NCBI GenBank assembly: GCA_017991515.1
Contig: JAGOQI010000005.1
Location: forward strand, 1-45,144
Length of the DNA: 45,144 nt
Origin: Minisyncoccota bacterium
GTDB taxonomy: Bacteria > Patescibacteriota > Minisyncoccia > Phycocordibacterales > UBA9973
Direction: 5' to 3'
Shown: in pieces, positions 34,496-38,628 of the stretch
Layout: each line of letters opens with the position of its first letter
Numbering within the stretch: the first letter of the stretch is position 1
The notes under the pieces: generated by a model
What the model was told of the DNA's origin: nothing
The model's input: only the letters and a program-made list of their open reading frames with translations
Databases searched by the model: none
Position numbers and translations under genes: made by a program

Positions 34496-34520
34496 ATTAG
34501 CTAGAACAGTTCTAGCTAAT
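34496..34520. repeat. REP palindrome copy 1
   Basis: A 25-bp perfect palindrome with 12-bp arms (ATTAGCTAGAAC / GTTCTAGCTAAT) around a central A. Identical to copy 2 (36056) and nearly to copies 3 and 4. Confidence 0.9.
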
Positions 34521-34610
34521 AACTCTTGCCAATATTTTATTGTTTGAGATAATTTATTTAAATAAAAATTCATTAAAAACAAAAAAATGGTTCTAAGGAG
34601 GAGCCACATC

Positions 34611-36182
34611 ATGAAAAAAATAATATTACTTTTAAGTTTTTTCTTTATTTTTTTATCTATTCAATCTCAAAACTGGATGCAAGTCCCGGGTTACCAGACT
34701 TCTTATGGTTCCGTTTCTGGTATTACGAAATATCAAGGCGAACTATGGGTGAAAACAGCCAATGCTATTTATAAAGTTTCAGGTTCAAGTTGGCAGATAA
34801 CAACTACAGGTTTTACTGTAACTAACGGTAGTGGGTGTCTTTACACAGACGGAACAGATCTATATGCCGGTGGTTTATTTATTTTTGGCACATACCAAGC
34901 ACTTGTTTTAAAATGGAATGGTACCAGTTGGGACCCTATTGCTTTTACAAACAATCTCGCTTCGGGTGTTCATGTATCTACTATACTAAAAACTCAAAAC
35001 TACCTTCATGTAGGAGGATTTTTTACTAGTATAGGTAACTCTCCATCAAATATTAATTTATCAATGCAGCATTGGGCCTCACTTGATAACGGCTCTTGGG
35101 TACAATTATTTTCTATGGTTGTTCCTGGTTGCGCTTCGGCTGTATGGGATATTAAAAAAATAGGAGATTCTATCTATGTTGCAGGAGGCTTCAGTGAGAT
35201 AGGTGGTATGTGGACACCAGGAACCTTTAGATTTAAAGAAGGGGGCGGCATGTCTATTTTGGACGGCTATATTTTTTGTAACATAGCAACAAGTTACTCT
35301 ATTTTAGGAGGTGAATTGTATGCTGGTGGAACAAGAAAGCATGATTTAGTTAATATTAATGTAGGCCTTGCCAAAAGAGTTAGTAATACATGGAATGCAG
35401 TAAGTGATCAAATGGAAATTACTAATTCCAGAATTACTAAATTGGTTGATAGGATATTTATAGGAGGGAAGCCAGGAAATGTCAATGGTGTTACAACAAA
35501 CATGTGTTCTTATAATGGATCTATTTTTACTAATGAAGGCATTGGAATTTCATCGCCGACCAGTTTAAATGTTTACCCGGAAGTATATTTGTTATTTGCA
35601 GATACGGTCCTAGGAACTATTTATGTTTCAGGAAGTTTTAAACAGCAAGATGGTAATGTTGCTGATAATTTTGCAGTTAGGGCGATATATCCACTACCCG
35701 TTCATTTATCTTCCTTCAATGCCAAAGTTTTAGCAGATAAAAGCATTAAGCTGGACTGGCGGGATGAAACACCAGAGAATGGTGTTGAATTCGATGTTCA
35801 AGTCAGCAATAACGGTCGGGATTTTCGATCAATTGGTAAGATTACCGAGAAAGGGGACAAGAAGGATTATTCGTTTATTTATCCAAACAAAGATTGCGGA
35901 AAGCTCTTTTTCCGCCTCGCTTTCGAAGGTAAGTACTCTGAAATCCGAACAGTCGATATCCCTTGCGATATTAGTATTATTGCTTACCAAAAGTCTCTAA
36001 GAATCCAAACCCAAAATCCTGGCACCCTTACAATCCTAAACACCTCCAGCCAACTATTAGCTAGAACAGTTCTAGCTAATGGGTACTGTCAGATACCACT
36101 AGATCTTCCGTCAGGTGTTTACATCGCCAAATTTGTTGATAAAAATGGAAACATTTTTTCACAAAAGTTTTTAATTCAATAA
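34611..36182 (+). CDS. Secreted protein with T9SS-type C-terminal sorting domain
   Basis: 523 residues from the ATG at 34611, which has a rare full Shine-Dalgarno (AAGGAGG, 34598-34604); the ATG at 34587 precedes it and is rejected. The signal peptide ends in SIQSQ|NW. A body of repeated W/G-rich strands follows (LYAGGLFIFG, LHVGGFFTSIG, IYVAGGFSEIG: beta-propeller-like, about 40-360). Then come LPVHLSSFNAKVLADKSIKLDW and VEFDVQVSNNGRDFRSIGKI, and an end of the type-A T9SS domain (LTILNTSSQLLARTVL, then LPSGVYIAKF and SQKFLIQ). These are hallmarks of Bacteroidota proteins exported through the gliding/PorSS machinery. In a patescibacterium this suggests lateral transfer. REP copy 2 lies in frame inside the sorting domain. 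Confidence 0.82.
   Translation: MKKIILLLSFFFIFLSIQSQNWMQVPGYQTSYGSVSGITKYQGELWVKTANAIYKVSGSSWQITTTGFTVTNGSGCLYTDGTDLYAGGLFIFGTYQALVLKWNGTSWDPIAFTNNLASGVHVSTILKTQNYLHVGGFFTSIGNSPSNINLSMQHWASLDNGSWVQLFSMVVPGCASAVWDIKKIGDSIYVAGGFSEIGGMWTPGTFRFKEGGGMSILDGYIFCNIATSYSILGGELYAGGTRKHDLVNINVGLAKRVSNTWNAVSDQMEITNSRITKLVDRIFIGGKPGNVNGVTTNMCSYNGSIFTNEGIGISSPTSLNVYPEVYLLFADTVLGTIYVSGSFKQQDGNVADNFAVRAIYPLPVHLSSFNAKVLADKSIKLDWRDETPENGVEFDVQVSNNGRDFRSIGKITEKGDKKDYSFIYPNKDCGKLFFRLAFEGKYSEIRTVDIPCDISIIAYQKSLRIQTQNPGTLTILNTSSQLLARTVLANGYCQIPLDLPSGVYIAKFVDKNGNIFSQKFLIQ
36056..36080. repeat. REP palindrome copy 2, inside the T9SS-type gene
   Basis: Same 25-bp palindrome as copy 1, central A. Read in frame as LLARTVLAN within the C-terminal sorting domain. 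The domain aligns with its family without a gap here, so the copy does not break the gene. Confidence 0.9.
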
Positions 36183-36202
36183 TATTCAGTTCTTTTTAAT
36201 TT

Positions 36203-36228
36203 AAAATCCCCAACTCAGGGGATTTTTT
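36203..36228 (+). terminator. Terminator of the T9SS-type gene
   Basis: AAAATCCCC and GGGGATTTTTT with an AACTCA loop. Confidence 0.88.
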
Positions 36229-36234
36229 GTTATT

Positions 36235-36257
36235 TTAGCTAGAACAGTTCTAGCTAA
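36235..36257. repeat. REP palindrome copy 3, before the RAYT gene
   Basis: 23 bp of the palindrome (arms TTAGCTAGAAC / GTTCTAGCTAA, central A). The RAYT -10 box starts five bases downstream. Confidence 0.9.
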
Positions 36258-36262
36258 TTTGA

Positions 36263-36274
36263 TATAATTTTTCT
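36263..36274 (+). promoter_or_regulatory. Leaderless promoter of the RAYT gene
   Basis: Consensus TATAAT (36263-36268), six bases, ATG at 36275. REP copy 3 overlaps the -20 to -35 region and could block or modulate polymerase. Confidence 0.62.
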
Positions 36275-36949
36275 ATGCTTAGAAAAGATAAATTTGTTTC
36301 AGGCGAGTATTACCATATCTATAATAGAGGTATAGATAAAAGGATTATTTTTCATGACAAGCAAGATAAAGAAAGATTTTTAATGCTTTTATATATTGCA
36401 AATAGTGAAGATAATTTAAAGCTTGATAATTTAACTCATAATCTACATAAGCAGTATAAAGAAATAATGAGTTTAAAAAAAGGAAAACAGTTGGTTTCTA
36501 TTGTAGGCTGGTGTTTGATGCCAAATCATTTTCACATACTCATAAAGCAAGATCTTGAAGAAGGTATTACAAAATTTATGAGGAAGCTAGGTGTTGGATA
36601 CTCCATGTATTTTAATAATAAATATAAAAGACAAGGAGCTTTGTTCGGAGGTCCTTTTAAATCAAAACTAATTGAAGATGACAGTTATTTTAGGAAGTTA
36701 TTTTCTTATATACACCTTAATCCTCTCGAGATAAAATTTCCTCAATGGGAAGAAAATATTTCTTTAAAAAATAAAAGCATTGAGATGGAAAATTTTTTAA
36801 AATCTTATATATATTCAAGTTATCAGGACTATACAGATATCAATAGAACAGAAAGTAGTATTTTAAATAAAGATATTTCTAAATACTATTTTGATGTTGA
36901 GCATTCTTTTAAGAATTTTATAAAACAGTACTTGGAGATCATTAGCTAG
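36275..36949 (+). CDS. REP-associated tyrosine transposase (Y1/IS200-like)
   Basis: 224 residues. N-terminal EYYHIYNRGIDK (11-22) is the RAYT opening. The HUH metal site is PNHFHILI (83-90), and candidate nucleophile Tyr109 or Tyr112 lies in LGVGYSMYFNNKYKRQGALF. The C-terminal part has SYFRKLFSYIHLNPL, also typical. RAYTs nick and join single-stranded DNA at REP hairpins and are usually single-copy, non-IS genes that spread REPs. Palindromes lie 17 bases before the start and across the stop: the TAG is inside copy 4. The gene looks intact. Confidence 0.9.
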   Translation: MLRKDKFVSGEYYHIYNRGIDKRIIFHDKQDKERFLMLLYIANSEDNLKLDNLTHNLHKQYKEIMSLKKGKQLVSIVGWCLMPNHFHILIKQDLEEGITKFMRKLGVGYSMYFNNKYKRQGALFGGPFKSKLIEDDSYFRKLFSYIHLNPLEIKFPQWEENISLKNKSIEMENFLKSYIYSSYQDYTDINRTESSILNKDISKYYFDVEHSFKNFIKQYLEIIS

Positions 36950-36968
36950 AACTGTTCTAGCTAATGAT
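36938..36968. repeat. REP palindrome copy 4, overlapping the RAYT stop codon
   Basis: Central T, so inverted relative to copies 1-3. Arms extend to 15 bp (ATCATTAGCTAGAAC on the left). The RAYT stop TAG is part of its left arm. Confidence 0.9.
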
Positions 36969-37009: not shown

Positions 37010-37525
37010 ATGAAATACATAAGTAAGACACATCTTATACTGTTGGTTATAATAGTCATTATTTTAGGAGGAATGCTTTTGTTGGGGGAGAAGTATTCTC
37101 AAAGAAGCTTTTTTTGGAAAGAGACTAGTGTTCCTGTGGCGCCTATAGGTACAGATGAACAGACGTTTCTTAGGGATTCAGGTCAGCCACAATCTCAACT
37201 AGAAATGCAAATGAAATCCGATAGTTTTATTATTAGACCAGGACAAAATAAGCTCTCTTATACAGATGCACTTGATTTATATAAAAACTCTCTAATACAG
37301 TTTAATGAAGATTGCCAAGTATCTTCTGGGGCTAGAGCTTTCGGTCTCAACAATGAAATCATGATAGACAATAGATCCTCTAAGCCAAATACTTTTATTG
37401 TAGGGGATAGCTCTGTTGTAGTTGGTCCATATGATTTTAATTTTTTAATTTTGAAACAAAAAGGTGACGATATAGCCATTGGTTGCGGAGATAAGAGAAA
37501 TGTAGCTATTATTGTCGTCCAGTAG
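37010..37525 (+). CDS. Membrane-anchored two-Cys domain protein, paralogue 1
   Basis: 171 residues: one N-terminal helix (about 7-26) and an exported domain (about 85-171). This domain matches the next two genes: Y..AL.LY, then IQFNEDCQV, IMIDNRSSKP, and CGDKRNVAIIVVQ at the very end. The two Cys of the domain may form a disulfide. A cupredoxin- or Ig-like beta fold is plausible; no metal motif is visible. The most diverged of the three copies. Function unknown. Confidence 0.7.
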   Translation: MKYISKTHLILLVIIVIILGGMLLLGEKYSQRSFFWKETSVPVAPIGTDEQTFLRDSGQPQSQLEMQMKSDSFIIRPGQNKLSYTDALDLYKNSLIQFNEDCQVSSGARAFGLNNEIMIDNRSSKPNTFIVGDSSVVVGPYDFNFLILKQKGDDIAIGCGDKRNVAIIVVQ

Positions 37526-37551
37526 AGATTCTTGCAAAAAGGCATATATTT

Positions 37552-37565
37552 GCTAATGTTTGATT
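37552..37565 (+). promoter_or_regulatory. Leaderless promoter of paralogue 2
   Basis: TGCTAATGT (TAATGT 37554-37559), six bases, ATG at 37566. The in-frame TTG at 37560 falls inside this six-base gap and is rejected as a start. Confidence 0.58.
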
Positions 37566-38066
37566 ATGAAAAATTTTATAGACAAAATACCGAAAAATTA
37601 TAGATTAGCCCTAGGAGCTGTATCTGTGCTTGTAATAGTTGCCCTTGTGGTTCGAGGCGCTCCAAAGTCTGATGTCGTATCAACTGAGCTTCCAATAGAA
37701 ACTCCACAAGAAGAATTGACAATGAAGAAGACTTATAAGAAAGCAGATTTAACTGTCGATCAAACAGCAACAACTCCAGAGATAGTAGATACTCGTAGTT
37801 ACGCAGAATTAATCTTGGCTTTTCAAGGAAAAACACTTCAATTCGGAAATGCTTGTAGTGTTCGAATGAGTGATCAGGTCTATAAAGTTGGCTCTCAAAT
37901 ACTTTTGGACAATAGAAATGATACTCCTGTATCTATAAAAATTGGTTCAGAAACTTACGAACTCTCTGTTTATGGACATAAAGTTATTTCTCTAAATACT
38001 GAAGGAAAGTTTATGGTGGATTGTAGTGAGTACCAAAATGTAGCAACTGTAACGGTTCAGCAGTAA
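37566..38066 (+). CDS. Membrane-anchored two-Cys domain protein, paralogue 2
   Basis: 166 residues from the ATG at 37566. The N-terminal helix (about 11-28) is followed by a polar linker and the shared domain (about 78-166): YAELILAFQGKTLQFGNACSV, ILLDNRNDTP, then VDCSEYQNVATVTVQQ. It is closer to paralogue 3 than to 1 (both have LQF..xC, LDNR, VDC and end in VQQ). Own leaderless promoter. Confidence 0.72.
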   Translation: MKNFIDKIPKNYRLALGAVSVLVIVALVVRGAPKSDVVSTELPIETPQEELTMKKTYKKADLTVDQTATTPEIVDTRSYAELILAFQGKTLQFGNACSVRMSDQVYKVGSQILLDNRNDTPVSIKIGSETYELSVYGHKVISLNTEGKFMVDCSEYQNVATVTVQQ

Positions 38067-38145
38067 CCAGGCTAGATTATTTTAGGATAAAAACATATTA
38101 TGGGTTGTAATATGTTTTTTTGCTTGTGTAATGTTTTTATAGGTC

Positions 38146-38157
38146 CATACTATATAT
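38146..38157 (+). promoter_or_regulatory. Leaderless promoter of paralogue 3
   Basis: CATACT (38146-38151), six bases, ATG at 38158. Confidence 0.5.
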
Positions 38158-38628
38158 ATGGAACCAATACAAAAGAAATCAAATAGTGTGATGTACGCGG
38201 TGGTAGGTATAATCGTTCTAATTATTGTTTTAGTATTAGTAATGTCGAATAAGAAAAGCGCTGTAATTGAGGATGTTATCAATGATCCTCAAGTAGAAGA
38301 TATTACAGCTGTAAATGATCCTGAAAAAGCAGGTGTTTCAGTAGGTAGTAATGCTGGTAAATATGCAGAGATGGTTTTGAAATACAAAGATCGAACTTTG
38401 CAGTTCAACGCAGAGTGTGCAGTTGTTAGAAATAGTTATACATTCAAGCAAGGTACAGATGTAATGCTTGATAATAGAGATACTGCTCCTGCTAAGATTG
38501 TTGTAGGATCTAGAACATTTAATCTACAAGCTCAGTCTTACAGAGTTATCGACCTAGGTTCAACAGGAACTTATAGAGTAGATTGTAATGATCGACTAAA
38601 TGTTGTAACTGTAAATGTTCAACAATAA
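38158..38628 (+). CDS. Membrane-anchored two-Cys domain protein, paralogue 3
   Basis: 156 residues. One helix (about 11-28: VMYAVVGIIVLIIVLVLVM), a linker with repeated NDP, and the shared domain (about 66-156): YAEMVLKYKDRTLQFNAECAV, VMLDNRDTAPAKIVVG, then VDCNDRLNVVTVNVQQ. Closes the tandem array. The three copies are separated by 40-90 bp, each with its own promoter, which indicates duplication of a whole transcription unit. Confidence 0.72.
   Translation: MEPIQKKSNSVMYAVVGIIVLIIVLVLVMSNKKSAVIEDVINDPQVEDITAVNDPEKAGVSVGSNAGKYAEMVLKYKDRTLQFNAECAVVRNSYTFKQGTDVMLDNRDTAPAKIVVGSRTFNLQAQSYRVIDLGSTGTYRVDCNDRLNVVTVNVQQ

Follow-up and report, generated by a model that had tools for sequence, protein, structure and literature searches.

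A 45,144 nucleotide stretch of DNA (the window) carries, within 2.5 kb, four near-identical palindromes around a transposase gene. The locus raises the question whether the palindromes belong to the transposase, and how copies lying away from its gene, one of them inside a coding sequence, came to their places. The host (genome G000, 570,666 bases, 98% complete) is a Nomurabacteria-type Patescibacterium. The region has the following features.

34496..34520, no strand: palindrome copy 1, ATTAGCTAGAACAGTTCTAGCTAAT, perfect, right behind the terminator of the preceding gene
34587..36182, + strand: ORF of 531 aa with a T9SS type A sorting domain (TIGR04183) at its end, between copies 1 and 3
36056..36080, no strand: palindrome copy 2, perfect, within the T9SS sorting domain, with the in-frame reading ...LLARTVLANG...
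36235..36257, no strand: palindrome copy 3, perfect, in the -35/spacer region, forming the upstream end of the transposase unit
36260..36268, + strand: extended -10 box TGATATAAT of a leaderless-type promoter, adjoining copy 3 and ending 6 nt before the transposase start codon
36275..36949, + strand: Y1 (HuH) transposase of 224 aa (protein P0001), HuH motif N84-H85-F86-H87, catalytic Y145 in YIHLNP
36938..36968, no strand: palindrome copy 4, 31 nt, perfect, forming the downstream end of the transposase unit
36947-36949: stop codon TAG of the transposase ORF, supplied by copy 4

When up to three mismatches were allowed, the 45-kb window contained four matches to the palindrome, exactly copies 1 to 4, and in 100 dinucleotide-preserving shuffles the mean was 0.02 matches and four were never reached. 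Search and shuffles agree with the sequence-only reading, which had placed four near-identical palindromes at 34496-36968 and none elsewhere in the window. Its observations that copy 3 adjoins the -10 box and that copy 4 holds the stop codon were likewise borne out. It had also described copies 3 and 4 as flanking the gene in opposite orientation; the flanking stands, but the orientation has little meaning because the repeats are near-perfect palindromes, whose two orientations are told apart by nothing but the central base (A or T). The reading had missed that copy 2 is part of a coding sequence, ORF 34587-36182, and is read in frame. All four copies folded well as DNA hairpins (z -4.2 to -7.8).

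The transposase and its surroundings

P0001 contains a Y1_Tnp domain (Pfam E 3e-10) and combines a HuH motif with a catalytic tyrosine in a Y1 fold, as expected of HuH/Y1 (TnpAY1) proteins; an HTH match was not found in Pfam. H85, H87 and Y145 were invariant in 24 aligned relatives. The YxxxNP motif, present in 91 of 106 relatives and in P0001 as YIHLNP, takes the place of Y---Q and assigns the protein to TnpAY1 class 2 (RAYT-like). Because a PDB search with the P0001 sequence alone gave no match and a profile search gave only weak matches, to TnpA and 4er8, a structure model was used (AlphaFold, pLDDT 88.6). Its top PDB fold match was 4er8 (E 4.5e-6, TM 0.60 by target), which is the E. coli TnpA_REP (RAYT) bound to a REP hairpin, and IS608 and ISDra2 TnpA came next. 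Judged by domain, aligned motifs and model, P0001 is a RAYT-like HuH/Y1 protein with an intact active-site signature and a predicted TnpA_REP-like fold. The gene is AT-rich (26% GC, compared with 36% for the window).

Copies 1 and 4 are 27-nt inverted repeats bounding a 2.5-kb block. The syntenic locus of G002 keeps the order ftsK - ORF - surface protein - small ORF and lacks both the T9SS-tail gene and the transposase; copy 1 is the left edge of the block missing there. It appears likely that the 2.5-kb block moved as one unit, and the gene with the T9SS tail, which copies 1 and 3 enclose, is probably a passenger that arrived with it. The search for empty sites proposed in the sequence-only reading thus succeeded in part: the block is absent at the syntenic locus of G002, but at base resolution neither an intergenic copy nor the transposase unit yielded an exact pair of empty and filled sites.

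The T9SS-tail ORF scored 24.3 bits as protein against TIGR04183 (cutoff 23). The T9SS sorting domain is normally a feature of Bacteroidota; here it is present in a Patescibacteria genome. Two of the 12 members of the window's genus have it, G000 and G006 only, and G006 has two such tails. At 37010-38628 three paralogues, each about 160-170 aa long, stand in tandem, as they also do at the syntenic locus of relatives; the two that were scanned gave no Pfam match. A GNAT acetyltransferase gene of the host genome (L019:4012-4842; G000:C5:75512-76340) has a variant palindrome near each end; it is laid out like the transposase unit and is a possible passenger.

Palindromes and transposases in related genomes

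Counting of the palindrome genome-wide and in relatives, as had been proposed, gave 10 copies within three mismatches of the window palindrome in G000 and 14 copies of a wider core, GCNAGNACNGTNCTNGC; the reversed control pattern had 0 matches in this genome. The core was found in 66 of 147 genomes of the same family, so that dispersed solo repeats, as in REPtrons and TIRtrons, are present. Outside the family it occurred in 7 of 374 phylum-sample genomes, with one match each, mostly imperfect and near the reversed-control rate. In the GTDB collection the exact 19-mer was found only in Candidatus Nomurabacteria contigs. Core variants (GCTAGAAC, GCAAGAAC, GCAAGGAC, GCGAGAAC, GCTAGGAC) show paired changes in both arms, and thus the hairpin is kept.

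Relatives of the transposase were found in 100 of the 147 family genomes, and they fall on two sides of an identity gap, with close relatives at 55% or above and the remainder at 51% or below. Each of the 28 genomes in which the transposase had a close relative contained at least two core palindromes (mean 6.7), compared with 22 of the 119 genomes without one (mean 0.8; Fisher p 9e-17). Two doubts attached to the proposed link, that the palindrome might be common in genomes without this RAYT or might have no copies outside the locus, are removed by these counts. Copies without a close transposase were present in 38 genomes; relics, or copies moved by a distant transposase, are suggested alternatives. 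G107, G124 and G116 each had 13 to 15 matches to the transposase family in a genome of 0.6-1 Mb, which is a heavy load for reduced genomes.

The copy numbers also bear on the idea that the unit is nothing more than an insertion sequence of the IS200 type with a hairpin at either end. A short unit with a single Y1 gene and a hairpin at each end, and the fold similarity to IS608 and ISDra2 TnpA, are what such an element would show. Its Y motif, however, is YxxxNP, whereas that of IS200 is YxxxQ (PMC6006769), and transposases of the same genome share a mean of 49% identity, whereas IS200 copies share about 99% (PMC6006769). Instead of several near-identical full copies, G000 has one transposase gene of this kind, outnumbered by solo palindromes. 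An IS200-type element is therefore quite improbable.

For a view of the pairing that does not depend on the known sequence, the loci most similar to the window protein (more than 100 fetched, 102 usable, from genomes that were mostly fragmented MAGs) were scanned for any perfect palindrome, the known one not being used as query. An upstream palindrome was found in 80 of the 102 loci, its centre at a median of -38 from the ATG (quartiles -40 and -34), a stop-codon palindrome in 76, and both in 66 (about two thirds), compared with a palindrome in 4.2% of random 110-nt stretches from the same loci. In these 66 loci the gene has palindromes of its own to either side, as in REPtrons and TIRtrons, and the two match within the locus: the similarity of upstream and downstream partners was 0.968 on average, compared with 0.56 when permuted (maximum 0.61 in 1000 permutations).

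From locus to locus the palindrome sequences vary widely (TGCTAGGTCTTGCCTAGCA is an example from another relative). Palindrome similarity tracked protein identity (Mantel rho 0.46, permuted maximum 0.13). This correlation owes part to common descent, but common descent does not explain the match within loci across loci of unlike sequence. Dozens of transposase-palindrome pairs that diverged together provide natural swap sets for finding the residues that would read the hairpin. In G015 two adjacent transposase genes each lie beside a different core variant. At L057:1324-1452 (G015:C1) the same genome also retains 42 aa of a transposase N-terminus as a remnant, with a palindrome on either side; both palindromes have a common downstream promoter sequence, and two tandem transposase genes adjoin.

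The promoter geometry was also preserved. A -10 box lay between the upstream palindrome and the ATG in 75 of 80 genes, ending at a median of 6 nt before the ATG; such a box occurs in 16% of random 24-nt stretches. With the -10 box about 6 nt before the ATG, leaderless transcripts are predicted, which places the upstream palindrome over the -35 region; on this sequence-based prediction it fills the -35 region of the promoter. Of the 76 downstream palindromes, 40 overlapped the stop codon. A role of the palindromes as intrinsic terminators was rejected, as a T-run followed only 3 of the 76 downstream copies.

Taken together, these data make it probable that the unit is a REPtron/TIRtron-like element, one HuH/Y1 transposase gene bounded by two copies of its own palindrome. 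The transposase would bind this palindrome as a single-stranded hairpin, cut near it and spread solo copies. The obvious inference from the promoter geometry is autorepression: binding to the upstream copy over the -35 region of the leaderless promoter would repress the transposase gene. The 14 copies in G000 count against this explanation, being few in comparison with the more than 100 of classical REPs; so do the failed search for an exact empty/filled pair and the 38 genomes with copies but no close transposase.

The palindromes could instead be operators only, bound as double-stranded DNA by a dimer for regulation, with nothing moving. Near-perfect dyad symmetry around a 1- to 5-nt centre suits such an operator, as does the fixed distance of the upstream copy from the ATG in the -35 region. 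This is nevertheless unlikely, since there is no promoter role for copies in rsmA, tsaD, alkD and other coding sequences, and none as operator for the partner at the stop codon. Moreover, the sequences match within a locus and differ among loci, and the only protein consistently linked to them is the HuH nuclease.

Palindrome copies within genes

The fetched loci contained 116 distinct core copies, of which 32 lay within ORFs of at least 90 aa; some of these ORFs may be spurious. Four genes were compared with homologues. In rsmA, TTAGCTAGAACAGTTCTAGCTAT encodes LARTVLA within ...LLSLARTVLAIEKD..., and relatives have ...LLVTAKKVIAIEKD... at this place; there was no gap against the relatives covering the region, and the copy is also present in G006. 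Copy 2 in the T9SS tail showed no gap, as counted by eye, against a palindrome-free T9SS tail of G006. In tsaD, ...KALLARTVLASKALLFP... stands against ...KAIEKK--FPSISVLFP... in G006 and is two codons longer, and alkD of G059 exceeds most palindrome-free relatives by about two to three codons and is one codon shorter than another. The net gain was 0 to about 9 bases for palindromes of 23 to 41 bases. As far as these alignments tell, the solo copies of all four genes take the place of existing codons and keep the frame, the net change being 0 to about +3 codons. Essential genes are among those that contain copies, and the palindrome could enter them if it replaces codons instead of being inserted.

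Replacement as a rule for every in-gene copy was rejected: the copies in cobalamin adenosyltransferase and MurE, which were compared with solved homologues only, look 6-9 codons longer. Because of these two addition-like copies, replacement holds where relatives are good and is not universal. secA has a further copy (L047:1361-3016), in the segment that precedes the C-terminal tail.

Copies inside genes might be ascribed to chance or codon convergence rather than to copying, as a beta strand could plausibly contain the peptide ARTVLA, and the core varies only at wobble positions of the A-R-T-V-L-A frame. We regard this as very unlikely: a near-exact match of 23 bases in rsmA and a perfect palindrome of 41 bases in tsaD are unexpected by chance, the reversed control found nothing in G000, and some copies are read in another frame. 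The wobble-only variation may be a sign of coding origin; the chance that two variable arm positions of eight fall in register is 1 in 28, and the search pattern was built on them.

Spread of the REPtron/TIRtron-like element's palindrome by copying could, as a tentative and somewhat doubtful proposal, proceed by overwriting. A native half-site would serve as the start, half a palindrome would be written by template switching, and fold-back synthesis would complete the hairpin, thereby inverting local sequence into the outer arms of the palindrome. In tsaD all 41 bases of the palindrome pair perfectly; the local K-A is retained in the left arm, of which the right arm holds the inverted copy, a sequence pattern as expected if fold-back synthesis took place. 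Across 97 copies the perfect arm extended 4.2 pairs past the core, compared with 0.4 expected, although the first two of these pairs, nearly always present, may belong to the core itself; the outer sequences were unlike among copies.

How REP palindromes spread is an open problem, and in-gene copies that take the place of codons while hardly altering the length allow a concrete, testable statement on how palindromes get written into DNA. The in-gene copies also show how streamlined genomes tolerate palindromes.

Comparison with known systems

The sequence-only reading had called the locus a REP/RAYT system. This stands insofar as the protein is RAYT-like, most relatives have their own palindrome pair, protein and palindrome change jointly, and copies occur genome-wide; the kind known from Gammaproteobacteria it is not. 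Canonical REPs are defined by a GT[AG]G foot of the hairpin (Quentin et al. 2018, PMC6006769). That the locus is a canonical GTAG-type system of the E. coli kind, as the RAYT fold and the flanking palindromes might suggest, is extremely unlikely: the foot was present in only 4 of 156 palindromes (2.6%, below the 4.5% of controls), and P0001 scored 43.3 bits against NCBIfam NF047646 (REP_Tyr_transpos), under the curated cutoff of 80 bits.

Among the closest known systems are the REPtrons with RAYTs of subclasses 2.2, 2.4 and 2.5 (PMC6006769; 4er8). They share with the present elements the fold, the HuH and YxxxNP-type motifs, gene-specific flanking palindromes, dispersed solo copies, copies inside genes and low identity among the transposases of one genome. 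The elements described here differ in lacking the GT[AG]G foot, in their symmetric stems and low copy number, and in the motif signature, which is that of subclass 2.1. With TnpAY1 subclass 2.1 (RAYT group 1), compared by motifs alone, P0001 and its relatives agree in NH[YF]H, F(Q/E/G)G (the W motif of the subclass being of FQ type) and Y[IV]HLNP (Table 1 of PMC6006769), and in a length around 225-240 aa. This subclass was reported to be without REP-like sequences (PMC6006769) and had been thought REP-free, whereas most of the genes studied here, whose proteins resemble it, have palindromes.

Rickettsia palindromic elements are likewise short in-frame palindromes inside conserved genes, but they were described as insertions (PMC3733652), whereas here the copies that are well resolved lengthen the gene by only 0 to about 3 codons. 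In a literature search that extended to journals outside subscription, no paper on such a system in Patescibacteria was found, and a large set of such palindromes in this group is apparently undescribed.

The nearest known arrangement is the TIRtron, in which a Y1 gene (TIRYT) is framed by inverted repeats without GTAG. Some of these repeats are self-complementary, and some recur in the genome; REPs inside genes were reported in the same work (Di Nocera et al. 2013, PMC3733652). TIRtrons belong to another phylum and have other repeats, and their GGGGWSAS consensus was not seen here. In comparison with them, the elements described here have near-perfect palindromes at both ends in most relatives and a fixed promoter geometry, and several of their in-gene copies replace codons.
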